Below are positions 3,500 through 42,902 of a stretch of DNA of 43,193 nucleotides, piece by piece. The stretch's first letter is position 1. Each line of letters opens with the position of its first letter. The DNA lies in assembly GCA_012689325.1 (NCBI GenBank), contig JAAYEA010000376.1, positions 1 to 43,193 of the forward strand, read 5' to 3'. The stretch is from Chloroflexota bacterium. Its GTDB lineage: Bacteria; Chloroflexota; Anaerolineae; JAAYEA01. The notes beneath the pieces are model-generated. The model was given only the letters and a program-made list of their open reading frames with translations. It searched no databases and was not told where the DNA came from. The translations under genes were made by a program, and so were the position numbers.

Positions 3500-6400
3500 C
3501 AGCTTCTCCTTCGGGGTGAGGCGCGGCGATCTGCTGCTGCAGCCCCTCGATCAGCGCCGGCACATCCTGGGTGCCCTCCACGATATCGGGGAAGGACTGC
3601 GCGGCAAAGGCGTAATACTGCCGCTGCCGATCCAGCACCGAGCAGAGCACCAGATGCTCCAGCGCCTCGTCCAGGGCCGCTGTCTGGACCTCCAGCGCGC
3701 AGCGATCGCGCAGGAGGCCGGCCAGGTCGCTCGCCGTCACCAGCGGGTTGTCGATCATCAACAGGGTGATCAGCCGCTCCAGGGGACTGGCGCTGCCCCA
3801 GATCACGGCCATATAGTACTCGGCGAAAAAGCGCGACCCGATGACCCCCTCCAGCGCCTCAACCGTCGCTTGCCGGGGCTCCTGCGCGCTGATCCCCAGC
3901 AAGAGCTGCTGGCAGATATACTGCACGACGTTGGGATGGCAGGAAGAGACGTCGCGGATCGCCTCCACCAGGGCGTCGGGGTCGGGAACCTGGATGCCCA
4001 TCTCGAGCATCGGCTCCAGGATGACCCGTTCCGCATCCGCGGGCAAGAGGTGGGTCAGGCGCAGCGTCTGGCAAAAGTTGAACAGGGGCGATTGCGCGTC
4101 GTTCAGCCGCGCGTTGAGCACCCGCTCCCCGCAAAAGACAAAGCGGCAGCGGTTCTCTTGCGAGAGCGCGCGGAAGGCGCGGAAGAGCTTTTCCTGGCGC
4201 GCCACGTCATGCGCCAGGAGCTCGTCCACCTCATCCAACAGGAACACGCGCAGTGCCTCGGCATCGCCCTTCTTGGCGGGCAACCGCGCCAGCATCTGCT
4301 CAAAGGCGTCCTCGGCGGAAGCGGGCGCGTCGACGCCCCAGCGGCTGCGAAACGCCTCCAAAAAGGCGGCCTCATCCTGGACGGCCTGGCAATCCACGTA
4401 GAACGGCTGATAGCCCGGCGTCTCGCCCAACAGGCGGTTCGCCTGCATCAGTACCGAGGTCTTGCCGATCTTGCGCCCGCCCACGATGGCAAAGCTGCGG
4501 TCCTGCACGGTGCGCAAGATGGTCTTGATCTCGGCGTCGCGACCAAAGAACATGCTCTCCGGGACCGGCCCGAAAGTAACGTATGGGCAGACCACCGCCA
4601 GATCGATCTGTTGCAGCAGCAGGCGAGTCAGGTGCTGCTCGCGCCGCCGGGCCGCGATGGTGCCGAAAACATCGGGGAAATCCAGCACGACGAAATCGTG
4701 CGCCCCCGTTTTGGCCAGCTCGCGCAGATCGGCAGCGCGGCTGGGCTGCGTCGCGTCCGCCCCAAAGACCAGCACCAGGGCGAAATAGCTGGTCATGTGC
4801 AAAACATCCATGACGTTGCGCAGGTCCTGGATATCCTCTGGCCCAAAGCTGGACTGGCGCATAAAGATGATGGGGAAACGCGGCGGAAGGCGCAGGCGCA
4901 GCGTGGGGCCCTCCACGACGTAGGCATGGAGCTGCTTGTAGGTCCGGCTCGTGACCCGCGTAAAGCCCATAAAGTTGCACAACTGGTTGATAAGTCGCGA
5001 GGTGGCCGCGCGAAAGGAGGCGGGGTCCGCCAGGCTGTCCTGCGCCGCCCGCCAGTTGCGCAGGAACGTCTCCACGCGCTTGGAGTCGGGCAGCTCCAGG
5101 CTTTCGGACTCGGCCCGCCAGGTCAAGTCCTGCTCGGGGTGCACCTCCCGGTAGCATTGCAGCGCCCCCGGCCGCAGCTCGAGCGGTATGCTGGGCAGGG
5201 CCTCGGCGGCCGCGCGCCCCGATGCCATGAGCGCCGCCCCGATCTCGGCATCCCACTGCTCCCAGTGTTCCTCCAGCGCCTGCACCGGGGTCGGCTCCTC
5301 GGACGTCCGGTTGCGACGGGCCCACCAAAGCCCGCCCGCCGCGCCTGCCGCCACCAGGCCGCCCACGCCCAGCCACGCCCACGGGAACCCGGCCGGCAGG
5401 CGGTCCTCGCCGGCCCAGACGCCGCTGTCGCGCACGGCGGCATAGAGCTTGCCCGGCTCCGCGGGATCGGCCAGCACGGCGCTCACCCAGCCGCCGGCAA
5501 AGAGCGGCGCCCACGTTTGACCGCCGTCGCGGCTCGCCAGGATGCCGGCATCCGTGCCCGCGTAGAGCGCTGGCTTGCTGCCCCCGCGCGCGGCCAGACA
5601 TTGCAGGGCCGCGTCGTGGGCCGCCAGCGAGCGCGCGCCCACGACCGCCCAGGATTTGCCGTTATCCTCGCTGCGATAGAGGCCATCGGACAGGGCCGCA
5701 TAGACGACCTGGCCCGAATCCACAGCGAGCACGGCCACGACCTCCGCCGCCGGCACAGCAGCGAGTCGCTGCCAGGTTGGGCGCTTGCCGGAAGAAGCAA
5801 GCTCGGCGCGGAACAGCCCATCGCGCGTCCCCGCGTAAAGGGCGCAGCGTTCGGAGCAAACGGCAGCCAGGGAGAGGATGCTGGCATCCGCCAACCCCTC
5901 GCCCAGCGCCTCCCAGGTCGCGCCCTGGTCCTGGCTCCAATAGACCCCCGCCCCATCGGTCCCGGCCACCAGCCGCGGCGCCCCCGGCTCGCCGGACAGG
6001 GCCGCCAGCGCCGTGACGGGAGCTCCCGACGCCACATCGTCGCACGCCAGCCGCCAGGACGCGCCGCGGTCATCGCTGCGATAGACCTGGCTGCCCCAGG
6101 TTCCCGCGTACAAGGGGCCCGCCTCGGCCAGGGCCAGGACGTTGAGCCCCTCGCCCCCGCGGCTATCCGACCAGGATTGGCCCCCGTCATCGCTATAGTG
6201 CATGCCCCAGTGCGTCGCCGCCACCAGGCGCCCGCGGCCCTCCGGCCACGCGAGCAACGCCTGGACGTCGCTGCCCACCAGGCCCGCGGACGCTGGCTCC
6301 CACGAGGCGCCCGCATCGCCGCTGCGCAAAATGCCGGCCCCCGTGCCCGCATATAACGCCCCAGGGCGACCGGGGTCCGTCGCCAAGGCGGTCACCATCC

Positions 6401-7310
6401 CCAGGCTCGACCCCACGGAGATCAACTCCCAGGTCGCCCCGCCGTCCTCGCTGCGCGCCAGGCCCCGGTCCCGGACCGCGGCATAGAGCGCGCCGGATGA
6501 GGCCGCTTGCGCCAGCCCGCCGATTGGCCCGCTCAGCTTCTCGCCGCCGACCGCCTGCCAGCTCTGGCCCGCGTCCGCGCTGCGATAGAGGCCCCGCTGC
6601 GTTCCGGCCAGCACGATCGGCGAGGGCGCGGCGCAGAGCAGCGACTCCACGCCAACCGCGGGCAGCCCCTCGGCTGCCTGCCAGGAGAGCCCCCCATCGC
6701 GACTGATGAACAAGCCCTGATCGGTGCCGACATACATGGCGTCCCCGCGCTCGGCGAGGGCCAGCGCCGTCACGCGCGTGGCCGCCAAGGGCTGCGCGCT
6801 CCAGGAGCGCCCGCCATCCAGGCTGCGATAGAGCGCGTCGCTGCCAGCAAAAAGGTGTGCGGGCTCGGAGGGGTGCGCGGCGAGGGCCCAGATGATCTTG
6901 GAGGGAGAAACAGAGCCCAGCAGCTCCCAGGTCTCGCCCGCATCGGCGCTCTGGTAAACCTGGCCGCTCTGGGTGCCAACCAAAACGCGCGCGATCGGGG
7001 AGGCGGGGGCAAAAGCGATGGATTGCGCGACCTCCGGCAAGGCCAGCCGCCAGCTCGCGCCGCCATCTTGGCTGCGGAACAAGCCCGCGCGCGTTCCGGC
7101 ATAGAGCACGCCTGGGCGCGCCGGGTCCGCCTGCAGGGCATAGACCTGCGCCCCGGCCGGCCCGGAGGTCTGCCGCCAGAGAGGCTCCTCGGCCAGGCAG
7201 GGTAGAGCCACCAGCGCCCAGGCAATGGCGAGCATACACAGCGCCCGCCGCGTCCGCTGCGCGCCATGCCGCTGCCCCTCGCCCCCTCGCGTGCGCCGCC
7301 TCGCTGGCAT
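3474..7310 (-). CDS. Transmembrane fusion: extracytoplasmic Asp-box beta-propeller, one TM helix, cytoplasmic STAND/AAA-like ATPase
   Basis: A signal sequence (about 20-40) is followed by a propeller region to about residue 635. It carries twelve canonical S/T-x-D-x-G-x-S/T-W Asp-boxes at about 80, 121, 163, 203, 244, 287, 330, 373, 412, 459, 547 and 593, plus two decayed units near 505 and 632. Unit spacing of 38-46 residues fits two seven-bladed propellers or one large VPS10/sialidase-like array. A membrane helix spans 643-664. Residues about 700-920 form an unrecognised domain, ending in a GPVPESMFFGRDAEI entry motif. The ATPase follows: Walker A GGRKIGKTS (944-952), Walker B RVFLLDEVDE (1021-1030) and a winged-helix-like tail. 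The start ATG has GAGG 5 nt upstream. The layout suggests a receptor whose outside propeller controls an inside NTPase; ligand and output are unknown. Confidence 0.85.
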   Translation of the reverse strand: MPARRRTRGGEGQRHGAQRTRRALCMLAIAWALVALPCLAEEPLWRQTSGPAGAQVYALQADPARPGVLYAGTRAGLFRSQDGGASWRLALPEVAQSIAFAPASPIARVLVGTQSGQVYQSADAGETWELLGSVSPSKIIWALAAHPSEPAHLFAGSDALYRSLDGGRSWSAQPLAATRVTALALAERGDAMYVGTDQGLFISRDGGLSWQAAEGLPAVGVESLLCAAPSPIVLAGTQRGLYRSADAGQSWQAVGGEKLSGPIGGLAQAASSGALYAAVRDRGLARSEDGGATWELISVGSSLGMVTALATDPGRPGALYAGTGAGILRSGDAGASWEPASAGLVGSDVQALLAWPEGRGRLVAATHWGMHYSDDGGQSWSDSRGGEGLNVLALAEAGPLYAGTWGSQVYRSDDRGASWRLACDDVASGAPVTALAALSGEPGAPRLVAGTDGAGVYWSQDQGATWEALGEGLADASILSLAAVCSERCALYAGTRDGLFRAELASSGKRPTWQRLAAVPAAEVVAVLAVDSGQVVYAALSDGLYRSEDNGKSWAVVGARSLAAHDAALQCLAARGGSKPALYAGTDAGILASRDGGQTWAPLFAGGWVSAVLADPAEPGKLYAAVRDSGVWAGEDRLPAGFPWAWLGVGGLVAAGAAGGLWWARRNRTSEEPTPVQALEEHWEQWDAEIGAALMASGRAAAEALPSIPLELRPGALQCYREVHPEQDLTWRAESESLELPDSKRVETFLRNWRAAQDSLADPASFRAATSRLINQLCNFMGFTRVTSRTYKQLHAYVVEGPTLRLRLPPRFPIIFMRQSSFGPEDIQDLRNVMDVLHMTSYFALVLVFGADATQPSRAADLRELAKTGAHDFVVLDFPDVFGTIAARRREQHLTRLLLQQIDLAVVCPYVTFGPVPESMFFGRDAEIKTILRTVQDRSFAIVGGRKIGKTSVLMQANRLLGETPGYQPFYVDCQAVQDEAAFLEAFRSRWGVDAPASAEDAFEQMLARLPAKKGDAEALRVFLLDEVDELLAHDVARQEKLFRAFRALSQENRCRFVFCGERVLNARLNDAQSPLFNFCQTLRLTHLLPADAERVILEPMLEMGIQVPDPDALVEAIRDVSSCHPNVVQYICQQLLLGISAQEPRQATVEALEGVIGSRFFAEYYMAVIWGSASPLERLITLLMIDNPLVTASDLAGLLRDRCALEVQTAALDEALEHLVLCSVLDRQRQYYAFAAQSFPDIVEGTQDVPALIEGLQQQIAAPHPEGEADAGPQVQD

Positions 7311-29869: not shown

Positions 29870-31696
29870 TCAGGGCATAACGATCGGATTGGACGTTGGC
29901 CGCGGCCGCACCACGCCCGGCGTCTTGGCGGCGAGCGTCGGCTGCGTCTGCGAGATGGCCGTCTCCGTGGGCAGCGGCGACGGTTCTGGCGTCACCGCGG
30001 TGCCCTGCGTCGGCGCGGGCGTTGGCGTCGCTGGCACCAGAGCCACCGTTGGCGACGGCTCTGGCTCCGCAGACACCCGAATCCAGCGCGCCACCAAAGT
30101 GCCGTCCGCCTTTTGCACGGCCTCTACCTCGGCCAGCCGGCCCACCGCCGGAGCGCCCTCGATGGCCGTCTCGGCGGTAATCTTGATCGCGCGCCCCTCC
30201 ACGACCCACTCGGTGGCGGAAAAGCTCTGGATGGCGCCCTCGAACTGCACGACGATCTCGGGCTCCAAGACCCGGATATGCGTGGCGGTCCACGGTCCAT
30301 CTTGGAAACGCTTGGCCCGGACTGCGGCCATTCGCCCCACCACCGGCGTGCCCTCGATGGTCGTATCGGGCGCGATGCGCACCGCCTGCCCGCTGACCAC
30401 CCATGCGGCGTCGGTAAAGGACTCGATCAGGCCCTGGAACTCGGTGACCTCGGGCTCGCGCGCGGCGGGACGCTCGATGACGATCTCGAGCGCCACCAGC
30501 GCGCCATCCGAGTCGCGCCGTACCGCCGTGACCCGCGCCCAGGCTCCCACCTCGGCGGGGCCGCCGCGCTTGTCGATCACCGTCTCCGCGGTCACGAGCA
30601 CCGTCTCGCCGCCGACCTGCCAGGAATCCTGGCCGATCTGGGAGATCGAGCCGGAGAACTGCAGCTTGATCACGCGCGGCTGGGTCGGCGTCGCCGTGGC
30701 GGTCGAGGTCGCGCTAGGGGTCAGGGTGCGCGTCCGAGTCCGCGTTGAGGTGGGCTCCGCCGTCGACGTGGACGTGCGGGAAGGCGTGGGCGACGCGGTA
30801 TCCGGCGGGATCGGCGTCTTGGTGGGCTCCGCGGTCTGGGTCTCCGTAGGGATGGCCGTGGCCGTACCGACCGGCGTGTTCGTCGGCGCCGGCAGCGGCG
30901 TATCGGTGTTGACCACAGCGGGAACCGTGGCCGAGGAGGTCGGAACCGCGGTCGGCGCCGCCATGTCGCTCTCGATCTCGATCCTGCGCGCCAGCACCGA
31001 GCCGTCCGGCTGGGTCCAGGCTTCCACCTTGACCTCGGCACCGCTCCCCAGCGCGGGCGCCAGGGTCACGTCGCTGGGCAGGGTCACGGTCACACCGCCG
31101 ATCACCACCACGGTATCCGAGATGATGTCCAACGTGCCGGTGAAGGCCACGCTCGCCGCGCGCCGCTCCTCCAGGAGCGACTTGGTTTCCGCGATGCGCC
31201 GCTCCTCGAAGGCATCTCGAAGGTCTTCTTTGGCCACGTTATCGAAGGTCAGCCAGAGCTGCACCTTTTCGCGGACCAGCTTGACGGGGTAAAAGACATC
31301 ACCAGGCAGGCTGCGCGCCGAAGCGACCAGCGCGCCCCCACCCAGGGAAAGCGCCGCAAAAGCCAGGACCAGCGCCGCCGTGGCGAATCCCCTGGCCAGC
31401 GTCGCGGGCGCGCCGCCCAGGTTCCGCCACCACGCCGACGCGCGAGCCAGCAGGGAACGTTGACGGCGCTCGCGCAGGACCACGGCCTGCTCCAGAAACT
31501 GCCGGCGACCGGCCGCTAGGGCGGCTGCAGAACGCGGGGGCACGGGCTGCAATGCGCGCAACTGCCAGGCAGCACGAAGCAAGGGAGCCAGTCGTTCTGC
31601 TTCTTCGGGATGCTGTGCCAGGCAAGCACGCAGGTCTTGTTCAGACCCAATTTGGTTGAGGCACTGGTCTAGTAACGACTCAAAATCCTGGCTCAC
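29870..31696 (-). CDS. Transmembrane anti-sigma factor with DUF5667 and four DUF5666 repeats
   Basis: The cytoplasmic N-terminus (1-100) would hold the sigma factor; one helix spans about 103-127. DUF5667 follows (129-185: SLPGDVFYPVKLVREKVQLWL), then DUF5666 repeats at about 183-242, 346-408, 417-476 and 482-542. Thr/Pro/Ser-rich linkers (248-340 and 545-600) suit passage through a wall. No zinc-finger (H-x3-C-x2-C) is present, so it is not a ZAS-type anti-sigma factor. The GTG start overlaps the sigma gene by 17 nt and has GGAGGAAGG upstream, which points to a matched sigma/anti-sigma pair. How the signal is released is unknown. Confidence 0.85.
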   Translation of the reverse strand: MSQDFESLLDQCLNQIGSEQDLRACLAQHPEEAERLAPLLRAAWQLRALQPVPPRSAAALAAGRRQFLEQAVVLRERRQRSLLARASAWWRNLGGAPATLARGFATAALVLAFAALSLGGGALVASARSLPGDVFYPVKLVREKVQLWLTFDNVAKEDLRDAFEERRIAETKSLLEERRAASVAFTGTLDIISDTVVVIGGVTVTLPSDVTLAPALGSGAEVKVEAWTQPDGSVLARRIEIESDMAAPTAVPTSSATVPAVVNTDTPLPAPTNTPVGTATAIPTETQTAEPTKTPIPPDTASPTPSRTSTSTAEPTSTRTRTRTLTPSATSTATATPTQPRVIKLQFSGSISQIGQDSWQVGGETVLVTAETVIDKRGGPAEVGAWARVTAVRRDSDGALVALEIVIERPAAREPEVTEFQGLIESFTDAAWVVSGQAVRIAPDTTIEGTPVVGRMAAVRAKRFQDGPWTATHIRVLEPEIVVQFEGAIQSFSATEWVVEGRAIKITAETAIEGAPAVGRLAEVEAVQKADGTLVARWIRVSAEPEPSPTVALVPATPTPAPTQGTAVTPEPSPLPTETAISQTQPTLAAKTPGVVRPRPTSNPIVMP

Positions 31697-32240
31697 CCAA
31701 GCCTTCCTCCACCAAGATACGGCGCATCGCGTCCAGGGCGCGATGTTGCAGGGATTTGATCGCCCCCTCGGTCTTGCCCATCATCTCTGCTACTTCGACA
31801 TTGCTCATGCCCTCCACGAACTTGAGCAAGACCACATTTCCTTGCTCAGCGGTGAGTTGCCTGATCGCTGTGCGTAGCTTTTCCTGGGTCAAGTTCTCGT
31901 CCAAAGCCCTGACCGGATCCCCGCAATCAGCTACCAGGCGCTCCTCCAAGGGCAATTCACTATCCTTACGCCAACCACGAAAGTGATCCACCACCACATT
32001 ATGGGCGATGCGATACAACCACCCCGAGAAAGAGGTCCGCCAATGCTTGGCCGAAAGGATCGCCTCCAGCATTTTGGTGAACACCGCCGCCGTGAGATCC
32101 TCCGACAGGTGGGCATCGCCAACGCGGCGATAGATATAGTTGTAGATGCGCGTCGAGTACCGGTCGTAGATCTCGGCCAGCGCTTCGCCATCATACTCGC
32201 GCGCTTTATCCAGCAATGCCCAATCGTCGCCGGAGAGCAA
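31680..32240 (-). CDS. ECF-type sigma-70 family RNA polymerase sigma factor
   Basis: A 186-residue group 4 sigma factor. Region 2 (about 18-90) contains the SEDLTAAVFTKMLEAI helix and GWLYRIAHNVVVDHFR; region 4 (about 118-175) holds a helix-turn-helix, VEGMSNVEVAEMMGKTEGAIKSLQHRAL. The TTG at 32240 is accepted because AGAGGA lies about 5 nt upstream and region 2 begins soon after; no better ATG exists. It is the first gene of a minus-strand unit with its anti-sigma factor and has a long leader under a sigma-A-like promoter. Confidence 0.93.
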   Translation of the reverse strand: MLSGDDWALLDKAREYDGEALAEIYDRYSTRIYNYIYRRVGDAHLSEDLTAAVFTKMLEAILSAKHWRTSFSGWLYRIAHNVVVDHFRGWRKDSELPLEERLVADCGDPVRALDENLTQEKLRTAIRQLTAEQGNVVLLKFVEGMSNVEVAEMMGKTEGAIKSLQHRALDAMRRILVEEGLGEPGF

Positions 32241-32618: not shown

Positions 32619-34538
32619 ATGATCTTGCCCGACGAAATGTTCATGGAGGGCCTGGAGGAAAAAGCCAGGTCCGATCGGCATCCCGCAGCCTGGCGTGAGG
32701 TGATGCGCTGGCTGGAGGAGCGCTCTGTCCAAGAGCTGCGCCAGCTCGCCCAAGTGCGCGGCGCGTCGCCCCATGCCACGCGCAAAGTAGAGCTTGTCGC
32801 CGAGCTGGTGGGCTTGCTGACCAATCGGGAAAGCGTGGAGCGCGCCATCGCGGAGGTGAGCGAAGCCGAGCTGGCCACCCTGCAGATGGTCTATCTGCTG
32901 GCCACGGAGGAAGGGCTCTCCCGGCAAGAGGTTCAAAAGGCCCTCCTGGCCTGGTATGGCCCCCTGGTGGCCAAGGATGCGACAGCCCACCTGGAGAACC
33001 TGCGCTCTCGGGCCCTTCTCTTTGGCACGCCCGATGCCGCTGGGGCCACCGCCCGTTTCCAGCTGCCGAAAGCGGTGGCCGCCTGCCTTCACTCCCTCCG
33101 CAAACCCATCGAATCGCTGACGCTCTCGGAAGATAGCCAGACCCGCCATTTGCCCACCTCGCTCTTGCTCGAAGCCATCCTGGCGCTATGGCAATACACC
33201 AAAGAAAGCGCCATGCGCATACGGGGCCTGAGCATGGCCTCATCAGGCCAGCCGCAGGAACCGGGAGAGTATAGCGAACAGCCCAACCTGAACCGATGGC
33301 TGGAAGAACAACAGCGCGGGCAAGAGATCGACAACGACGAGTTGTACGTCGATATCCCCCTCCCTGCCCACGGTCTGGAGCCCGCCGACCTGAGCGAGCT
33401 GGCCCGGGCAACGGGCTGCCCGCCCGAGATGATCGAGTTCATTTGCGCGCTGCTGCTCGAGATGGGCTTGGTGACCCTCGCCGCCGACGAGCTTCAGGTC
33501 AACGAGCTGGCCATGGAACGCTATCGCCGGCACGGCGAGGTGCAAAAGCTCCAGGCATTGACCCTGGCCTGGTTGGGGACCTCGCGGTGGAGCGAGCTGC
33601 GCCTGGCCGCGGGACGCATGCAGGCCCGCTTGCAGCGCCATATCCGCGCCCAAGAGGTCGGGTACCGCCAGATCAGCCAGGATATCTCGCACACCCGTCA
33701 GTTCATCGCCCGGCTCCTGAGCCTGCTGGACAAGAACCGCTGGTATAGCCTGGACTCTTTGCTGGAGGCCATCGGGCAACTGTGCCCCGATCTGGCCTGC
33801 CTCGCCCAGAGCCAGGTCGCGCTGTTGCCCCGGTGGCGGCTGGCAGGTCCCGAGGCCAAGCCGATTGCCCATACCAATGCGGCGGCGTGGCGCCAAAGTT
33901 ACGGCCAGATCGTGGCCGCCACGGTAGAGGGGCCCCTGGCCTGGCTGGGATGCGTGAGCCTGGCCTATCGCGATGGCGAGCTCGTGGCCTTCCAGTTGAA
34001 CGGGCTCGGCCAATACGTGCTGGGGCGCTTCCCCCGCGCCCTCTCCAGCGGCGGCGATATGCGCCCGCTGACCGTCGCCGAGGACCTGACCATCAGCGTG
34101 CAGTTGGGGCGCGTGGATGCCGAGATCCACGACTTTCTGGGGCAATTCACCGACCTCGTCGAAGCCGAGTCCGACATCTTTCGGTATCGCATCTCGCCTC
34201 AGCAGCTCAACCAGGCGCTGGAAAGCGGGATCACGCTCCAGGGTATCCTCTCCTTTCTCGAACGGGTGAGCGGCGCGGCGCTGCCCGATAGCGCCAAACG
34301 CAAGCTGACCGAATGGTGCGATTCCTATGGCTCGGTTCGCCTTTATGAAGGGCTGACGGTCATCGAGTTCGCCGATGACTATGCCCTTCGGGAGCTGATG
34401 AACACCACCTCCCTGGCGGACCACCTGATCTACCAGCTCTCACCGCGCATGGTGGTGATCGAGCCGGACTCCCTGGAGGCCCTCATGTCCGAGATGGTCA
34501 AGAAGGGGTACACTCCCAAAGTCGAGGAGGCGCCCTGA
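32619..34538 (+). CDS. SAP-like plus XPB/Ssl2 N-terminal-like (Helicase_C_3) protein
   Basis: A 639-residue cytoplasmic protein. Residues about 35-68 fit the SAP DNA-binding pattern (SVQELRQLAQVRG...RKVELVAEL). A winged-helix-like middle part and a C-terminal region at about 482-632 resemble PF13625 (helicase XPB/Ssl2 N-terminal domain): ISVQLGRVDAEIHDFL, YRISPQQLNQALESG and GILSFLERVSGAALP. It is a diverged paralogue of the next gene: both also share an AWLGCVSLAY / HWLGVVSLGW block followed by VAFQLNGLGQYVLG / VAFRVTPIGAQILG. No Walker motif is present. AGGTG lies 7 nt upstream of the ATG, and the stop overlaps the next start (TGATG). Confidence 0.75.
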   Translation: MILPDEMFMEGLEEKARSDRHPAAWREVMRWLEERSVQELRQLAQVRGASPHATRKVELVAELVGLLTNRESVERAIAEVSEAELATLQMVYLLATEEGLSRQEVQKALLAWYGPLVAKDATAHLENLRSRALLFGTPDAAGATARFQLPKAVAACLHSLRKPIESLTLSEDSQTRHLPTSLLLEAILALWQYTKESAMRIRGLSMASSGQPQEPGEYSEQPNLNRWLEEQQRGQEIDNDELYVDIPLPAHGLEPADLSELARATGCPPEMIEFICALLLEMGLVTLAADELQVNELAMERYRRHGEVQKLQALTLAWLGTSRWSELRLAAGRMQARLQRHIRAQEVGYRQISQDISHTRQFIARLLSLLDKNRWYSLDSLLEAIGQLCPDLACLAQSQVALLPRWRLAGPEAKPIAHTNAAAWRQSYGQIVAATVEGPLAWLGCVSLAYRDGELVAFQLNGLGQYVLGRFPRALSSGGDMRPLTVAEDLTISVQLGRVDAEIHDFLGQFTDLVEAESDIFRYRISPQQLNQALESGITLQGILSFLERVSGAALPDSAKRKLTEWCDSYGSVRLYEGLTVIEFADDYALRELMNTTSLADHLIYQLSPRMVVIEPDSLEALMSEMVKKGYTPKVEEAP

Positions 34539-36796
34539 TGAGTTCAGCGCTGGAGGACCTGCTCCGGAGCTATAGCCCCAACGCCCAGCAGACCATCGCC
34601 AAGATGAACGGTCTGGATCCCGAGGCCCTGCCAGGTACGCCAGATCATGTGCGCGTCCTGGCGCAGGCGCTGGCGCGCCCGGAGCGGATCGAGCGCGTCC
34701 TGTCCGATCTGGATGGCGTGGAGCGGTTGGTGCTGGAGCGCCTGCTGCTTCAGAACGGACAGGCCAAAACCGACCTGTTGCGCCAGGAGCTGTTGCAGAG
34801 CGGCTTCATCCCCGAGTCACCCTCGGCGAAATACGTCGGCTCGCCTTACCGCCAGCTTCCGCGCTACTTTGAGGATGTCCTGGCTCGCCTGGCCGCCCTG
34901 GGTCTGGTCCTCTCCACCGGCGACAGCGAGCACAACGACCTCGCCGAGCCTGCCGAGCTCAGCCCTAGCGCCAGGGTGCTGATCCCCGACGAGATCCGCC
35001 GGACCCTGCCCTCCTCGCCCACGTGGCTGCCCACCCTGCCGCCTGACGGCCTCTCCCAGATCGTCGAGGGCGCGCCCGACGAGTTCCAACGTGACCTGTT
35101 TCTCTTCTGGAGCTATGCCAATAGCCATCAGATGGTGCTAACCTCGCGCGGATGGATTCCCAAACGGCATTGGACGCACCTTAACGAGGAGTTCAGGTAC
35201 AAGGAAAGCCTGCGCGGGCTCCGCAACGAAGGAGAGACCGGCCGCTTTGGTTTCTTGCACATCCTCATGGAAGAGATGGGCCTTTTGCAGCAGGCGGAAC
35301 GCGAGCTCAAGCCCGCACCCAACTCGCGCGAATTCCTGGCCCTGAGCCTGCGAGCGCGCACCGAGCGCGCCTTGCGAGCCTGGTTAAGGGCCTCGGCCTG
35401 GAACGAGTTGTCGCGCATCCAGGAGCTTTCCAGCAACTCGCCGCGCCCGCCCAGCAGCCGCCTGACCTCCGCCCTCAAAGGCGCGCGGCAATTCGTCGCG
35501 GGGCTGCTGCGGCATGCCCCTCCCGACCAGTGGGTCTCCTTAAAGGGCTTTATCGAGCGCGCCAGGGCAGTCAATGACGAGTTTTTGCTGCCGCGCTACC
35601 ATAGCTACTATGGCTTCCACAACCCCTATCATGGCCACGGCAACGCCGTCTCTTGGGAGTTCCCCGCCTTTGACGAAGCCAAGGGCTGGGACCTGGTCGA
35701 GGCGCGCCTGATCGCCAATATGCTGCAAGAGCCGCTGCATTGGCTGGGCGTGGTCTCGCTCGGCTGGGCCGCCAACGAGCCGGTCGCCTTTCGCGTGACC
35801 CCCATCGGCGCGCAGATTCTCGGCATCAGCTCGCCGCAGCCCGAGCAGGCGCCGGAGCGCCGTATCATCGTGCAGCCCAACTTTCAGATCTTTGCGCTGG
35901 ATCCGATCAGCGACTATACCCTGTCCCTGCTGGACGAATTCGCCGAGCGGGTCAAAAGCGAGCGGGTGTTCGAGTACCAGCTCTCCCGCGAGTCGGTCTA
36001 TGAGGCGCAGCAAAAGGGGGTGACCGCGGCCCAGATCGCAGCGTTCCTGGATCGCGAGAGCAACACCCCCGTGCCGCAGAATGTCAAGATGACCCTGCAC
36101 GAGTGGGGGCGCTACCACGAGCGCATCGTCTTTTACCAGGGCGTCGCCCTCTGCCAGGTGGCGGAACCGGACATCCTGGACCGCATCCTCAACGATCCGC
36201 GGGTATCCGCGCACCTAGCCGCCCGCATCTCCCCGACGACCGCGATGGCGCGGGGCAGCGGCGCGGGCTTGCAGGGGCTGCGCAAAGCCCTGCACGGCAA
36301 GGGGATCCTGTCCACTTCAACCAGGTCGATGCCGCCCTATGCCGTGCAACCAGATGGGCGCATCCGCTTCCGGCACCGCGTCCCGGATTTCCACATCCTG
36401 CACCAGTTGGCGCCCTTTACCCTGGAGCGGGATGGCGACCTGCGCATCACGGAGGAGGCGGTGGCCAAAGCGGCCTCCACGGGATGGACGGCCGCCAGGA
36501 TCATCCAGACCCTTTCCGCGCAACAGCAAGAGGCCTTGCCCCTCGATGTGGTATCCAAAATCAAGGTATGGGGCAAGCACTATGGGGATGCTGCCATCAG
36601 CAAGGTGACGCTGGTGCAGTTCAAAAGCGCGGATATCCTGCGCGAGTTGGCCGAGGACCTGGAGATCGGCCCGCTGATCGTGCCGTTTTCGCCCACGGGC
36701 GCGCTGGCCATCGTCCGCGACGAGAACGTGGATGCGCTTCGTGCCGCCCTGCGCCAGCGGGGCATGGGCCTGGATAGCCAACTCCGCTCCGGCTGA
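34538..36796 (+). CDS. Helicase-associated (XPB-partner-like, PF13625) protein
   Basis: A 752-residue protein in the size range of the actinobacterial helicase-associated proteins encoded beside XPB (for example Rv0862c with Rv0861c). Two copies of the XPB-N-like fold are suggested. One is at about 440-560 (IIVQPNFQIFALDP, YQLSRESVYEAQQKG, IAAFLDRES...VPQNVK). The other is at about 603-735 (DLRITEEAVAKAASTG and a closing IVPFSPTGALAIVRD). No ATPase motif is seen. Its ATG overlaps the preceding stop by one base, so the two paralogues are made together and may form a heterodimer. A DNA-repair or DNA-remodelling role is inferred only from the family. Confidence 0.78.
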   Translation: MSSALEDLLRSYSPNAQQTIAKMNGLDPEALPGTPDHVRVLAQALARPERIERVLSDLDGVERLVLERLLLQNGQAKTDLLRQELLQSGFIPESPSAKYVGSPYRQLPRYFEDVLARLAALGLVLSTGDSEHNDLAEPAELSPSARVLIPDEIRRTLPSSPTWLPTLPPDGLSQIVEGAPDEFQRDLFLFWSYANSHQMVLTSRGWIPKRHWTHLNEEFRYKESLRGLRNEGETGRFGFLHILMEEMGLLQQAERELKPAPNSREFLALSLRARTERALRAWLRASAWNELSRIQELSSNSPRPPSSRLTSALKGARQFVAGLLRHAPPDQWVSLKGFIERARAVNDEFLLPRYHSYYGFHNPYHGHGNAVSWEFPAFDEAKGWDLVEARLIANMLQEPLHWLGVVSLGWAANEPVAFRVTPIGAQILGISSPQPEQAPERRIIVQPNFQIFALDPISDYTLSLLDEFAERVKSERVFEYQLSRESVYEAQQKGVTAAQIAAFLDRESNTPVPQNVKMTLHEWGRYHERIVFYQGVALCQVAEPDILDRILNDPRVSAHLAARISPTTAMARGSGAGLQGLRKALHGKGILSTSTRSMPPYAVQPDGRIRFRHRVPDFHILHQLAPFTLERDGDLRITEEAVAKAASTGWTAARIIQTLSAQQQEALPLDVVSKIKVWGKHYGDAAISKVTLVQFKSADILRELAEDLEIGPLIVPFSPTGALAIVRDENVDALRAALRQRGMGLDSQLRSG

Positions 36797-36976: not shown

Positions 36977-39900
36977 ATGACGTCCCCCGAATCGCTCAAC
37001 CAGATTCTGGATGCAGGCCCTCGACCAGGCGTCGTTTTTCTACCCACCCTCGACCTGGATGACGTCCCGCGAGTCGATGCCGAGCGCGATATCACGCCAT
37101 CCACCCTAAAGCAGGCCCGTGAAGCCACGCTGGCCATGCGGATCATGGCGCTGGCCAATGGCCCCAGCGGATGGGGAGACCGGCGCTACCTGATCCTCGG
37201 CGCCCGCCCCACGGGCGAACTCGTGGGCCTGGCCGAAGGGGCGCTCAGCAACGACATGGTGCAACGGATCGCCCAGCGCTATTGCGACCCACTGGTCCTT
37301 TGCTACTATCAGGAGCAGCGCACGCGAGGCCAGCGGGTGGGCATGGTGGTCATCTCGGATAGTCCGGCGAAACCCTTCCGCTTCGCCGAGGATGTTAGCT
37401 ATCAGCAGGGCGGGCGCGCCAAGCCGGCCTACCGGCGCGGCGAGATCTGGCTGCAGGCGGCCGACCAGGCCCGCGAGGCCACCGCGGACGAGATCGTGGC
37501 GATCAAACTCGACGCGGCGCGGGTCAAGGCCGCGCGCGGGTCGTCCCTCGTCGCCGCGGGCGACCAGGCCGACGAAGCGATAGACGCCGCCGCATGGCAG
37601 CCGCGCCGGGGCCTCTCGCTCATCACCGACGAGTCGCCCGCCATCGAGATGAACCCCGCCGTGCAGGAAGCGCTGGCGCGCACGATCCTCGAGCAGCGCG
37701 TGCTCGTCCTGTGCGGCCCGCGGCAGGAGACCTGCGCGATTGCAGAACACCTCGCCCGGCAACTGGGTCGCGAGCTGGACAACCCCGTGTACCGCGCCGC
37801 GTCCGAGGCCACCTCCTCCGAGTTCTTGTCCGCGGTGGCAACCCGGCAGCGGTTGGTGGCCCTGGCTTGCGAGACGGCGCCGCGCGAATGGCGAGGCGCC
37901 CTGGCCGAACTGCAACGCCTCGCCCAGCGCCAGGATGCTTTCATCCTGCTGGCGTCCGGCGCCCCGGCCAGCGCATGGCGGATTTCGCCGGACCTGCAGC
38001 CCAGCCTGGTGGACCTGGCCACCCAATCAGCCTACACGCAAGAGGCCCTGGCCGAGCTGGCGCAGGCTCAGATCGTCCCGGGGATTCCCAGCCAGGCCCT
38101 GGCCGGCCAGAGCGTGGAGGCCGTCACGGCGCCGTTGGGCAGCCCGGAAGCCATCGGCCGCCTGGCCGAGATCACCGGGCGCGCTCCGCTGCGCAGCCCA
38201 GCGCAACTGGAGGACGCCGTCGCCTTGGCCGCCGACCCGCTCCGCGACGCCGTGGAGTGGTTCTGGGCGCTCGACTATCACCAGCGCTACTTTGTCCTGG
38301 CGGTCTGCCTGCTGGGCAACCTGCCCGCCACGACCTTTTGGCGCTACTATGAGCAGCTCGCCGCCGAAAGCTGGCGCACCCGCGAGCCGACCTTGCGAGC
38401 CCTCCCCGGCCTCGATCACCTCCTGAGACGGCACCTGCAGGAGGACCTGAGCTTCCGGTACCCGGAGGCCAGGGAGGCGATCCTCGCCGAGGCGCTGCGC
38501 CGCTACACCCGTCCCCTGGTCTGGGCCCTGCCCAACCTGCGGGACATCATCGTCCAGCTCGGCGAAAATGTCCTGCATGCGGACACGGCGCCGACGCGAG
38601 CGGCCCGCCAAAACGTGGCCGAGGCCCTGGGCGCGCTGGCGCTTAGCGATTGGGAGGCCGTGCTGCCGGTCTTGCAGCGTTGGGCGACCCAGCGCGTTCC
38701 CGAGACGCGGCTGGTCGCCTCGCGGACGCTGGCGCGCGCCATCGCCGAGGGCGATGCCGGATTCACGGAGCGCGTGCTGGCCGTGCTCGACGGCTGGACC
38801 AACAATGTGGCCCTGGAGGCCGGCTGGGCGGCGCCCCGACAGGCCTACCGCGTCCGCTGGACGGCCGCCTGGGCGCTGGGGCAGGCTTGGCGCTATCTGG
38901 AATCGGAGGCGGCGCGGGTCGCCGCGCTGGCTCCCCTCTGGACCCTGGCGCGCGACACGGACCCCCGGGTGCGGCAGGGCGTGGCGCAGGCCATCGCCTC
39001 GCTCGCGCCCCTGGGCTTCCAGGACCTGGCGGGCATCCTGGGCTACCTGGCCGACGACCTGAGCAAGCCGGTGCGCTCTCACGTGGCTGCCGCCATGGGC
39101 GCCTACGCCGCGGCCGCGCCCCAAGAGACGCCAAGTATCCTGCGCGGCTGGGCTAGCGAGCCGGACACGCTGCGGCGCTGGACAGCCGCCGCGAGCCTGC
39201 TCCAATCCTGCAACCAAGGCCAGCCCTGCGACGAGCTCCTGGCCCTGGCCCCGCAGAACCCTGCGGGAGAGGACATCGTCGCGGAGATACTGACCGAGGT
39301 CGGCGAGACCCCGGGGGTCGCGCCGGAGGCCCTCGCGCCGCTGCTGGAGCGAACCGCCCAACAGGACCACCCCGCCGCTCGTTCCTGGACTGGGGCTGCC
39401 TTGCAGGCCCTGGCGCAATCGCCTGAGAAGCGTCCCGCGGCCCAAAAGCTGGTGGAAGGCTGGCGCTCCGCCAGCGACCCCGCGCTGGCCGCGGCAGCCG
39501 TCGAGTGGGATCGGCTCCTTAAGCAAGCGCCCTTCCGGCCGGTCCGCGCGCCAGTTCAGCCAGCAACGCCGCTGGATACCGCCCTGGAAGAGCTGGAAAC
39601 GGAGCAACCCGCCCCGGCCGCCGCCCCGCTGCGCATCGAGGAGCGCGCCAAAGAGCCCGCCGCGGAACCGGCGGTGGTTCAGGGCCCCCGTCGCTGGCTG
39701 CGACAGGCTTCGCTGGAGGCCGAGAAGGCCCAGAGCCGCTACAGGCTCTTGGCCAATATCGCGCGCGGCCTGTTGCGCGCGGCGGCCATGGCGGGCATGA
39801 CCTACGCAGTGCTTCGGCGATTCCCGTACTATGACGACCAATGGCTTCCCGTGCTGGTCCTCGCCGTCCTGGCGCTGGGATATGCCAAACCAGCGCTCGG

Positions 39901-40717
39901 CACAGCCCTGGGGGCCGTGATCGCCCTCCTCCCGCTGCTCTATCACGCGCCGGCGCTGGCGCTGGGGGTCGTGGTGTTCGGGGCCATCCTGTTCGCCCTA
40001 TCCGGCTCCCTGGGCGAAGAACACCTGCTGGAGAAACGGCTGGCCGTGTTGGCCTTCCCCATGCTGGTGGTGACGCCATGGGCGCTGTTGCTCCCCTTCC
40101 TGGCGGGCAGCCTCTTCCGCAAGCGCGCGGCCTGGGTGGTGGTGGCGGGGATACTGCTGGCCATCGTCGTGGGGGTGGCCCTGGGGCAGGACGCGATGGG
40201 AACCTATCTGGTGACCGGCGTCGCGCCCACGGAGAGCTTGGTGCTGGAGCGCGCCGCGCCGGAACGATGGCAGTCGCTGGGGTGGCTGCTCGACTTGGAC
40301 ATGTTCAAGATGGCTGGAACCGGCCTGCTTGCGCTGGCGCGGCAACTCGTCGACGCTTTTATCACCACCCCGCTGCCGCTGGTCCAGCTCGCCCTCTGGG
40401 GGCTGGTGGCCTGGCTGGCTGGCTGGGGAGCCAGCCAACCCCGGGTCAAGACGGGCGGGCCGTTGATCGCCCTGGCCGCCCTGCTCATGATCGCTTGCTA
40501 CAGTTTTGTCTTTCCCGAGCTGCTGAGCTGGGAGCTGCCTTTCGGGACGGGCGGGACCATGAACGGGCGGATCGTGCTGGGCGCCCTGGCGGCGCTGCTG
40601 ATCGCCTTCGGCTGGCCCTGGGCGCGCGCGACTCTTGGGCAAGCGAGAACCTGGGAGATGCTGCGACGTTACCTGACCGACGGAAAGGACTGGCTGGTTT
40701 CCGCCCTGCGCAAGTAG
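36977..40717 (+). CDS. Schlafen/AlbA_2-like, degenerate NTPase, HEAT-repeat and polytopic membrane fusion protein
   Basis: A 1246-residue protein of unusual layout. Residues about 45-180 resemble the Schlafen AlbA_2 domain: MRIMALANGPSGWGDRRY, LILGARPTGELVGLAEG, and the late AYRRGEIWLQAADQA with ATADEIV. Residues 225-400 look like a STAND/NTPase core whose P-loop is decayed: VLVLCGPRQETCA has no G-K-S/T. Helical pairs at about 500-850 (for example DTDPRVRQGVAQAIASLAPLG, KPVRSHVAAAMGAYA) are HEAT-like. After a Pro/Ala/Glu linker, about 925-1215 holds some eight membrane helices; the N-terminal domains would be cytoplasmic. GGAGG lies 11 nt before the ATG. Its stop is 7 nt from the convergent penicillin-binding-protein gene. 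Function unknown; nucleic-acid sensing at the membrane is a hypothesis. Confidence 0.75.
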   Translation: MTSPESLNQILDAGPRPGVVFLPTLDLDDVPRVDAERDITPSTLKQAREATLAMRIMALANGPSGWGDRRYLILGARPTGELVGLAEGALSNDMVQRIAQRYCDPLVLCYYQEQRTRGQRVGMVVISDSPAKPFRFAEDVSYQQGGRAKPAYRRGEIWLQAADQAREATADEIVAIKLDAARVKAARGSSLVAAGDQADEAIDAAAWQPRRGLSLITDESPAIEMNPAVQEALARTILEQRVLVLCGPRQETCAIAEHLARQLGRELDNPVYRAASEATSSEFLSAVATRQRLVALACETAPREWRGALAELQRLAQRQDAFILLASGAPASAWRISPDLQPSLVDLATQSAYTQEALAELAQAQIVPGIPSQALAGQSVEAVTAPLGSPEAIGRLAEITGRAPLRSPAQLEDAVALAADPLRDAVEWFWALDYHQRYFVLAVCLLGNLPATTFWRYYEQLAAESWRTREPTLRALPGLDHLLRRHLQEDLSFRYPEAREAILAEALRRYTRPLVWALPNLRDIIVQLGENVLHADTAPTRAARQNVAEALGALALSDWEAVLPVLQRWATQRVPETRLVASRTLARAIAEGDAGFTERVLAVLDGWTNNVALEAGWAAPRQAYRVRWTAAWALGQAWRYLESEAARVAALAPLWTLARDTDPRVRQGVAQAIASLAPLGFQDLAGILGYLADDLSKPVRSHVAAAMGAYAAAAPQETPSILRGWASEPDTLRRWTAAASLLQSCNQGQPCDELLALAPQNPAGEDIVAEILTEVGETPGVAPEALAPLLERTAQQDHPAARSWTGAALQALAQSPEKRPAAQKLVEGWRSASDPALAAAAVEWDRLLKQAPFRPVRAPVQPATPLDTALEELETEQPAPAAAPLRIEERAKEPAAEPAVVQGPRRWLRQASLEAEKAQSRYRLLANIARGLLRAAAMAGMTYAVLRRFPYYDDQWLPVLVLAVLALGYAKPALGTALGAVIALLPLLYHAPALALGVVVFGAILFALSGSLGEEHLLEKRLAVLAFPMLVVTPWALLLPFLAGSLFRKRAAWVVVAGILLAIVVGVALGQDAMGTYLVTGVAPTESLVLERAAPERWQSLGWLLDLDMFKMAGTGLLALARQLVDAFITTPLPLVQLALWGLVAWLAGWGASQPRVKTGGPLIALAALLMIACYSFVFPELLSWELPFGTGGTMNGRIVLGALAALLIAFGWPWARATLGQARTWEMLRRYLTDGKDWLVSALRK

Positions 40718-40724
40718 CGCCGCC

Positions 40725-42848
40725 TCAGGGAGCCGCCTGCGCCAGGCCGAGATAGCTCTCCACCGCCTTGCGGAAAATGGGCGCGGACTCGACCCCACCT
40801 TCGCCGCCATGGTCAACGACCACGGCCACGGCGATGGTGGGGTTTTCTGTGGGCGCATAACCCGCGAACCAGGCGTGCGGCTCCGTCGGGCCGGCCTCCG
40901 CCGTGCCCGTCTTGCCTGCCACGGGCACCTGAATGCCCGCGAAAGCCAGGTAGGCCGTGCCGTAGGGCTCCATGGCGACCTCGCGCAGCGCCTCTTGGAT
41001 CAGGTCCAGATGCTCCGGCGAGATAGGGAGTTGGCCGATGGACTCTACGGCGAAGGCCGTCTCCGTCCCCCCGCCCAACGACATGATCCGGTGCACCAGC
41101 CGGGGGCGATAGAGCGTGCCGCCGTTGCCCACCGCCGCCAGCAGGTTGGCGGCCTGCAGCGGCGTCACCAGCATATACCCCTGCCCGATAGCCATGTTGA
41201 CGGCATCCTGCGTCGTCCAGAAGGGGTTGGAGACCTGGTCAGGGTGAGCCTGCTTCCACGCGGGGTTGGGCACCAGGCCAGCCGCCTCGTCCACGCCCTG
41301 GATTCCGGTCAGTTGCCCCAGGCCGAACTTGGACGCATACCCGGGCAGGATTTCGGCGTTGGTCTCGTCCAGCGCCTTGCCCACCTCGTAAAAGACCACG
41401 TCGCAGGACTGGACCAGCCCATAAAACAGGTCGATAGTATTGTGCCCCGTTTTGAGCCAGCAATTGCGCACCAGGCCATCGTTCAGCCCCATCCATGAGC
41501 CGGGGCAAAAGAACGACGACTCGGCCGCAAAAGCGCCCTCTTGCAGGGCCGCCGTCATGCTCACGATCTTGAAAACCGAGGCGGGAGGATACTGCCCCAG
41601 CGTTGCCCGGTTGACCAGGGGATGCAGGGGGTTATCGAGCAGCGCCTGCCACTGCGCGGCCGAGAGCCCCCGGCTCATCTCGTTGGCGTTGAACGAGGGC
41701 CGGCTCACCATCGCCAGGACATCGCCGTTGGTCGGGTCGAGCGCCACCACGGCGCCGGCCCGGTCACCCAACGCCTCATAGGCGGCCTTTTGCAGCGCCG
41801 GGTCCAACGCGAGATAGACGCTCTGTGAGGGCTGCGCGGCCACGTCCTTGAGCACCTTGACCGTCTGCTCGCCGGACATGATCGCCAGCGTGCCCCCGCG
41901 TTTCCCTGCCAGGGGGCGTTCCGCCCACCTTTCCACGCCCGCCTTGCCTACCGTATCATCCACCATGTAGCCCAACGAGCGCCACTGCTCCCACTCTTCC
42001 GCGCTGATCTGCCCCGTATAGCCCACGATGTGCGCGAACAGGTCGCCCTGCGGGTACGCCCGCACCAACTTTTCCTGGCGCGAGACCCCAGATAGGTTCG
42101 CGAGGACGCCCTGCAAAGCGGCGTTCTGTTCCTGGGTGATATCGGCGACGGGCATGAACCAATCCTGGCGCGCGGCGGAGGCGTACTTGTTCCGGATCGC
42201 CTCCCGCGGCATCCCCAGCGCAGAGGAGAGGGTATCCAGGAGCTTGTTCTCATCCTGGATCCACTGCGGCACCACGCCCACCGAGATGACCTTCTCCTGT
42301 ATCGCCAGGGCGGTCCCATCTCGCGCATAAATGTTGCCGCGCTGCGGGGACTTGATGGAGAGCCGGACCAGCATGCCCTCCTGCAAATCCTCCAGCATGG
42401 CCTGTGGGGTCCAGGCGATGCGCCAGGCGGCGCCCTCGGGCACGAACGCGAGTCGATTTCGCGCGTTCACCGGCCCTAGCAGCGTCGTCTCCAAGACCAG
42501 GTCATAGAGGACATCGACGCGCTCCGGGGATATAGCCTCGGTGCCCGCCCGCTGAGCCTGAAGTTTGAGCAGCGCCATCTCGTTGTGCAGCCCGCGGTAG
42601 CGCTGGGTAAAGGCCCCCTGCGAGATGGATTGCTGGGCCGCGGAGGCGAGCAGGCCGTACATGGCGCCCCAATCGCTCCGCTGCCACGCCTCCATGAAGG
42701 TTTGGGCCGTCTGGGCGATCTGCTCCAGCGGCGGCGCCGGCGTGGGCGACGGCGTGGGCGTCGTCGGGCTCAAGGCGAGTTGCTCGCAGGCCGCGAGCGC
42801 CAGAGCGAGAGCCAGAACCATCACGAACGCGAGGCTTTTTATCTTCAC
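40725..42848 (-). CDS. Class B penicillin-binding protein (transpeptidase), lipoprotein, MecA_N-type
   Basis: A D,D-transpeptidase that cross-links peptidoglycan outside the membrane. A lipoprotein signal ends at LALAAC (C21). A Pro/Thr linker and an NTF2-like MecA_N domain (about 40-155) precede the dimerisation domain (about 160-330) and the transpeptidase domain. Its motifs are S424-V-F-K427, S481-C-D (in place of the usual SxN) and K646-T-G. The GTG at 42848 is chosen because AGGAG lies 7 nt upstream; a GTG at 42899 would put that site inside the gene. It is convergent with the AlbA/HEAT protein gene. The MecA_N domain does not by itself imply beta-lactam resistance. Confidence 0.9.
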   Translation of the reverse strand: MKIKSLAFVMVLALALALAACEQLALSPTTPTPSPTPAPPLEQIAQTAQTFMEAWQRSDWGAMYGLLASAAQQSISQGAFTQRYRGLHNEMALLKLQAQRAGTEAISPERVDVLYDLVLETTLLGPVNARNRLAFVPEGAAWRIAWTPQAMLEDLQEGMLVRLSIKSPQRGNIYARDGTALAIQEKVISVGVVPQWIQDENKLLDTLSSALGMPREAIRNKYASAARQDWFMPVADITQEQNAALQGVLANLSGVSRQEKLVRAYPQGDLFAHIVGYTGQISAEEWEQWRSLGYMVDDTVGKAGVERWAERPLAGKRGGTLAIMSGEQTVKVLKDVAAQPSQSVYLALDPALQKAAYEALGDRAGAVVALDPTNGDVLAMVSRPSFNANEMSRGLSAAQWQALLDNPLHPLVNRATLGQYPPASVFKIVSMTAALQEGAFAAESSFFCPGSWMGLNDGLVRNCWLKTGHNTIDLFYGLVQSCDVVFYEVGKALDETNAEILPGYASKFGLGQLTGIQGVDEAAGLVPNPAWKQAHPDQVSNPFWTTQDAVNMAIGQGYMLVTPLQAANLLAAVGNGGTLYRPRLVHRIMSLGGGTETAFAVESIGQLPISPEHLDLIQEALREVAMEPYGTAYLAFAGIQVPVAGKTGTAEAGPTEPHAWFAGYAPTENPTIAVAVVVDHGGEGGVESAPIFRKAVESYLGLAQAAP

Positions 42849-42902
42849 GAGCGAACTCCTGGCCTCCAATACGAGGCCGGGCTTTGGATGGCGTATCACG
42901 GC

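Follow-up and report, generated by a model that had tools for sequence, protein, structure and literature searches.

The window analysed here comprises positions 1 to 43,193 of contig JAAYEA010000376.1 of a Chloroflexota bacterium, and it carries two coupled genes, P1 and P2, whose products are probably bacterial counterparts of p52 (TFB2), the XPB partner in the eukaryotic transcription factor TFIIH. In our preferred reading they are p52-like subunits that clamp and regulate the XPB helicase in trans; their fold and their linkage to XPB were established computationally, and from these we infer binding and function. A preliminary description of the stretch had called them XPB-partner-like paralogues, which was right and, with both proteins predicted to be p52-like in build, understated. 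A 2012 paper on mycobacterial XPB states that homologues of p44 and p52 were not found in bacteria and that bacterial XPB was therefore not thought to be part of a TFIIH-like complex (PMC3353954), and we found no later report of a bacterial p52 in the open-licence literature. The PF13625 family is already known, with a helicase-associated annotation, and its members are not new; what appears to be new is to read them as p52-like and as a tandem pair within an XPB operon. The features of the pair are as follows.

32619..34538 (+), P1, putative p52-like XPB-partner protein of 639 residues, PF13625 at residues 484-604
32688..32843 (+), P1 residues 24-75, SAP-like helical module (weak profile evidence; helices in the AlphaFold model)
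32844..33098 (+), P1 residues 76-160, predicted winged-helix domain resembling MarR/Fur DNA-binding domains (structural comparison, Z ~10, winged helix at about residues 79-159)
33348..34031 (+), P1 residues 244-471, region ahead of the clutch (structural comparison)
34053..34337 (+), P1 residues 479-573, clutch-like domain with the predicted fold of the XPB N-terminal domain (Z 15.0, 94 residues, 1.9 Å)
34338..34535 (+), P1 residues 574-639, C-terminal-domain-like (CTD-like) domain, better conserved than the rest of P1
34524..34530 (+), GAGGAGG, strong Shine-Dalgarno-like motif 7 nt 5' of the P2 start, presumed to serve that start
34536..34540 (+), TGATG, in which the P1 stop and the P2 start overlap, read from the sequence
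34538..36796 (+), P2, putative p52-like XPB-partner protein of 752 residues, two PF13625 stretches, Tfb2 match at residues 399-508
35024..35848 (+), P2 residues 163-437, domains that match the N-terminal half of p52 (6tru_D, Z 10.9, 157 residues, 3.7 Å)
35849..36130 (+), P2 residues 438-531, clutch domain A, better conserved than the rest of P2, Q446-P447 being invariant
36131..36313 (+), P2 residues 532-592, CTD-like domain A, in the position of the C-terminal (p8-binding) domain of p52
36323..36793 (+), P2 residues 596-752, second clutch-like and CTD-like unit, placed by the second PF13625 stretch

The two open reading frames and their TGATG junction were borne out from the frames and the sequence; the TGA stop of P1 and the ATG start of P2 share one base, and P1 and P2 are two coupled genes rather than the fusion that the wording of the preliminary description implied. 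In a profile search with PF13625 (Helicase_C_3) both pass the Pfam cut-off of 34.2 bits, P1 with 67.5 and P2 with 102.5. The proteins share 26% identity by BLASTP and align by hhalign with 100% probability over 552 columns (20% identity), and judged by these alignments they are diverged paralogues over most of their length, as had been proposed. P2 in addition passes the cut-off of the Tfb2/p52 family (PF03849; 38.4 against 34.5 bits, residues 399-508), with a match that spans only model positions 247-356 of 358 and that scored 34.6 bits in the genome search. The same family is matched at E <= 0.1 by 15 of the 26 members of the P2 alignment (A4), and by neither XPB of the source genome. The XPB model NF045503 (NCBIfam) is matched in its N-terminal part only, at positions 1-155 by P1 and 24-134 by the best stretch of P2, and the XPB profile search found no helicase motor in the window, its matches there being confined to the PF13625 regions of the two proteins.

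AlphaFold2 models, based on alignments of 26 proteins for P2 and 28 for P1, have a mean predicted local distance difference test score (pLDDT) of 86.5 for P2 and 82.7 for P1. When the P2 model was compared with the PDB by Foldseek, the first 18 matches were all p52/TFB2 (best E 2.1e-10, 625 columns) and XPB chains ranked after them, from E 5.8e-6; for P1 the first 17 matches were p52/TFB2 (best E 1.4e-10). The chains were identified from chain letters and entry titles, and in a few entries the p52/TFB2 chain is the one that we take it to be. Human p52 is described as beginning with winged-helix domains, continuing with a clutch that is folded like the N-terminal domain of XPB, and ending in a domain that binds p8 (PMC6422496). 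This order is spanned by residues 40-594 of the predicted P2 model, which aligns to the p52 chain 7nvv_2 (VIA) with Z 14.7 over 271 residues at 8.3 Å, and the second clutch/CTD unit at residues 596-752 lies outside the reach of the p52 matches. The clutches of the two proteins superimpose on the XPB N-terminal domain (NF045503, PF13625) with Z 14.7-15.0 at 1.5-1.9 Å, P2 residues 439-530 aligning to it (VIA) over 91 residues with Z 14.7 at 1.5 Å. In P1, residues 244-471 together with N-terminal parts match the N-terminal half of p52 (6tru_B, Z 10.5, 164 residues, 3.7 Å). Both proteins are shown computationally to have a predicted p52-like build, in which helical and winged-helix domains are followed by a clutch and a CTD-like domain.

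A likeness of this kind could also have arisen if an XPB-type N-terminal domain had been joined to winged helices independently in bacteria and in eukaryotes, in which case P1 and P2 would not be kin to p52 and might still bind XPB. The clutch and the XPB N-terminal domain share one fold (PMC6422496), P1 and P2 match XPB N-terminal domains too, and winged helices are common, all of which would fit such an origin. We nevertheless consider it unlikely, as p52 beats XPB by four orders of magnitude in Foldseek E-value, the 6tru_D chain, which is the half of p52 without the clutch, still matches P2 at Z 10.9 where the best unrelated row reaches 8.1, and the Tfb2 family matches P2 and not the XPB proteins of the source genome.

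Conservation in the two alignments points in the same direction as a p52-like, XPB-binding role. With its own row left out, the window pair keeps 43 of 49 strongly conserved columns in P2 and 17 of 19 in P1, which is within the range of its XPB-linked relatives. Clutch A stands out among the P2 domains with a mean conservation of 0.60 against 0.34-0.47 in the others, and in P1 the CTD-like domain ranks first (0.51). In TFIIH, p52 and p8 are reported to activate XPB and also to cap its maximum rate, and the E359K variant of ctp52 to retain 5% of the activation (PMC7708078). By the yeast TFB2 alignment and residue spacing, ctp52 E359 falls on the invariant Q446 of P2; the consensus of bacterial XPB N-terminal domains has VQ there too, and the E359/Q446 match is therefore not counted as proof.

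Further evidence comes from the distribution of the genes. Among 251 genomes of the phylum, XPB is found in 38, and P1-type and P2-type matches in 67 and 75, respectively. Each of the 38 genomes with XPB also has a P2-type match, though the N-terminal domain of XPB can itself yield weak ones. In the fetched and annotated subset of 20 genomes with a tandem pair, drawn from 8 family codes, 19 have XPB, compared with 38 of 251 overall (Fisher p 4e-17, uncorrected for kinship); the exception, G244, is 88% complete and in ~1,760 contigs. XPB lies directly ahead of the pair in six of these genomes, the source genome not being one of them, since it combines a linked but broken pair with the intact, unlinked pair of the window. 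A further 80 XPB loci were fetched with an XPB query as the best of 561, and open reading frames below 130 residues were left out when gene order was counted. The order XPB, P1, P2 occurs in 24 of them and P1, P2, XPB in two; because the loci were selected in this way, 26/80 is not to be read as a frequency, and some of them duplicate genomes of the other locus set (for instance L166/L087 and L169/L082). The three-gene operon is tight, with gaps mostly of -11 to +68 bases. Three more loci run from XPB to P1 and then to the contig end, in one XPB is followed by a weakly matching P1-type gene and then by two of P2 type, 19 have P2-type partners only, and 31 have none within the available stretch. 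Operon loci are mostly titled as Chloroflexota or Anaerolineae bins, and any further gene family is shared by at most 4 of the 27 operon loci.

Single partners beside or near XPB were seen in records of Paenibacillus, Deinococcus, Gloeocapsopsis and Tsukamurella. The preliminary description had cited an actinobacterial arrangement of one partner beside the helicase, and in the one Tsukamurella record the partner is indeed single but not adjacent, its end lying 3.5 kb upstream of XPB and five genes separating the two. This helicase-associated protein (L226) belongs to the same family (PF13625, 137.2 bits) and aligns by hhalign at 98.2% to P2 over 475 columns and at 96.7% to P1; it differs in being one protein with one PF13625 stretch. 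The single partners from Tsukamurella and Paenibacillus gave no sequence match to p52 or XPB in the PDB. Another single XPB partner (L207 5336-7273) carries a C-terminal WYL domain.

These counts bear on the suggestion, made in the preliminary description, that the two proteins form a heterodimer that works without XPB or with a helicase coded elsewhere. As a self-sufficient complex, two clutch-bearing DNA-binding proteins would pair together and need no XPB; in favour of this are the winged helix and SAP-like module of P1, the separation of the pair from XPB in the source genome and in 12 more of those sampled, and the lack of XPB in 37 of the 75 genomes that have P2-type matches, including G005, G112 and G176, each a single contig and 99% complete. 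The proteins in XPB-free genomes, however, are single and more distant PF13625-type proteins (many of ~550-690 residues, such as L138 6493-8151 in G005) and not tandem pairs, the pair genomes have XPB with the one fragmentary exception, and no other P2 domain is as well conserved as clutch A, which in p52 is the domain that binds XPB. For the tandem pair we regard work without XPB as quite improbable and do not retain the suggestion, whereas a helicase coded elsewhere is supported by the two XPB genes on other contigs of the source genome and by the XPB found in 19 of the 20 pair genomes. Given the single proteins in genomes without XPB, independence from it may hold for other members of the family.

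The source genome (5.29 Mb in 580 contigs, 96.8% complete) carries two full-length genes for XPB outside the window contig, on C102 (874.6 bits) and C486 (838.3 bits), whose products are 65.6% identical. The heading "without the XPB helicase" given earlier to the pair accordingly describes the window and not the genome, and the proposed look for XPB elsewhere has found it twice. On C486 (L017), a P1-like and a P2-like gene come after XPB in the same orientation (L017 7666-10588; C486:22665-25587), and by comparison with the relative in L080 they show two large deletions, of which the first is in frame and the second is not. The first takes ~280 residues out of the middle part of the P1-like gene. 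The second takes away the end of that gene together with roughly 280 residues at the start of the P2-like gene, and it changes the frame. These deletions may be real decay or an error of the draft assembly. On C102 (L018 2175-7662) XPB stands alone, with no P1/P2 pair on the contig stretch examined and a divergent uvrC 1.8 kb away. As the pair on C486 is broken and the XPB of C102 is without one, the window pair is the only intact pair found in the source genome. A search of all annotated loci (126 with an XPB match) showed uvrC near XPB at this one locus only, and it was set aside as a recurrent neighbour. Contamination was likewise rejected as the source of the second XPB, for contigs C281, C486 and C102 fit the genome in G+C content and tetranucleotides, in contrast to 15 loci from other genomes, whose composition is unlike it. 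Two further PF13625 proteins were seen on these and other contigs, one of 631 residues divergent from the XPB of C486 (L017 12474-14369, +) and one a fragment ended by the contig edge (L019 5006-5674, on C99).

That the window pair is a drifting remnant cut off from XPB could be argued from its lack of linkage, from the SWIM zinc finger that five of 28 relatives in the P1 alignment (A5) match at E <= 0.1 and window P1 lacks, and from the broken state of the other pair in the genome. Such a fate seems highly improbable to us for two frames that are both open and coupled and that keep their conserved columns at the level of XPB-linked relatives. In the P1 tree, window P1 falls within a supported set of 10 rows, of which seven are XPB-linked. 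An attempt to name its partner XPB by trees was dropped, because XPB placements were unsettled (approximately unbiased (AU) test p 0.10-0.11; L018 with L113 at support 80/39). L121, L127 and L131 were left out of this analysis, and rows of <=500 residues out of the other XPB tree.

Several observations count against a pair of p52-like XPB partners and have kept our confidence in it short of high. P1 has no Tfb2 (PF03849) match in the Pfam scan and is therefore labelled p52-like and not a Tfb2 member, and among the 251 genomes window P2 alone passes the cut-off of that family. Template modelling scores (TM-scores) to whole p52 chains are 0.13-0.40 with root mean square deviations of 8-29 Å, because the domains differ in their relative placement, and the match to p52 therefore holds domain by domain. 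Outside the clutch, the P1 match to 6tru (Z 10.5) is tied with those to common winged helices (Z ~10-11). In 12 of the 20 pair genomes XPB occurs only elsewhere in the genome, as it does for the window pair, and the XPB trees do not single out the partner of the latter. Lastly, and as a difference from TFIIH, relatives of p8 (PF06331) and p34 (Tfb4) were not found in the source genome by searches whose controls were silent, and p44 (Ssl1) was not found by one whose control matched only below the cut-off.

On balance we still favour P1 and P2 as p52-like subunits acting on XPB, and their mechanism might run as follows. In the source genome the pair would act in trans on one or both XPB proteins, as co-occurrence and retained constraint suggest. 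From its fold and linkage, clutch A of P2 would dock on the N-terminal domain of XPB as p52 does in TFIIH, and docking would set the two RecA lobes, switching on the XPB ATPase and limiting it. P1 would stand in for p8 and close the cradle, possibly by way of the second clutch of P2 or of the conserved CTD-like domain of P1 itself, and the SAP-like and winged-helix domains of P1 might guide the complex to DNA. The cellular task may be DNA opening in repair or at promoters.

The SAP-like part of this scheme calls for caution. The preliminary description credited one of the two proteins with a SAP-like motif, and this stands as a weak resemblance, since window P1 has no match to Pfam SAP (PF02037, cut-off 23.9) and five of the 28 A5 members match it weakly (E <= 0.1). 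The P1 orthologue in L080 matches SAP at E 5.6e-4, below the Pfam cut-off, and the P1 family profile touches the solved chains 1zrj (E 0.034) and SLX4 7cq2 (E 0.099), both presumably SAP domains.

Compared with known systems, the pair shares with p52/TFB2 the predicted domain order over most of its length, with a clutch of XPB N-terminal fold and then a CTD, and the partnership with XPB, here suggested by operon linkage. It differs in being bacterial, in comprising two paralogues of which P2 has an extra clutch/CTD unit, and in the N-terminal SAP-like module of P1 and the SWIM zinc finger of some relatives; from XPB itself both differ in lacking the helicase motor. Archaeal Bax1 is likewise described as a dedicated XPB partner that alters the XPB ATPase, and as a nuclease on the thumb/HD2 region of XPB (PMC7293015). 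In P1 and P2 all Pfam nuclease families fell below cut-off, no search having been aimed at the Bax1 nuclease domain.

A p52-like pair in an XPB operon would give bacterial XPB a concrete, testable partner, and XPB with P1 and P2 would make a three-protein minimal system for the control of XPB by p52. The pair also bears on the origin of the TFIIH core, and a TFIIH-like module may exist in bacteria. Counting one clutch domain in XPB, one in P1 and two in P2 gives four, and we put forward, tentatively and as somewhat doubtful, that these form two pseudo-symmetric pairs in a two-p52-like XPB module, kept as one operon in Chloroflexota, from which the XPB/p52 half of TFIIH descended or with which it shares ancestry.

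Of the other genes in the window, the one after the pair (36977-40717, +) has a weak SLFN_AlbA_2 N-terminus, HEAT repeats and an apparently hydrophobic C-terminal part, and no relatives of it were found near other pairs. PADLOC gave at best E 0.16, for this third gene only, and no link to anti-phage defence is therefore drawn. It is followed by a penicillin-binding transpeptidase with a MecA_N-type NTF2-like domain (40725-42899, -). Divergent from P1 lies a gene for a sigma factor of the extracytoplasmic function (ECF) type beside a DUF5667/DUF5666 protein (29870-32240, -), and a gene at 3474-7310 (-) joins BNR/sortilin-like repeats to a STAND-type ATPase region.

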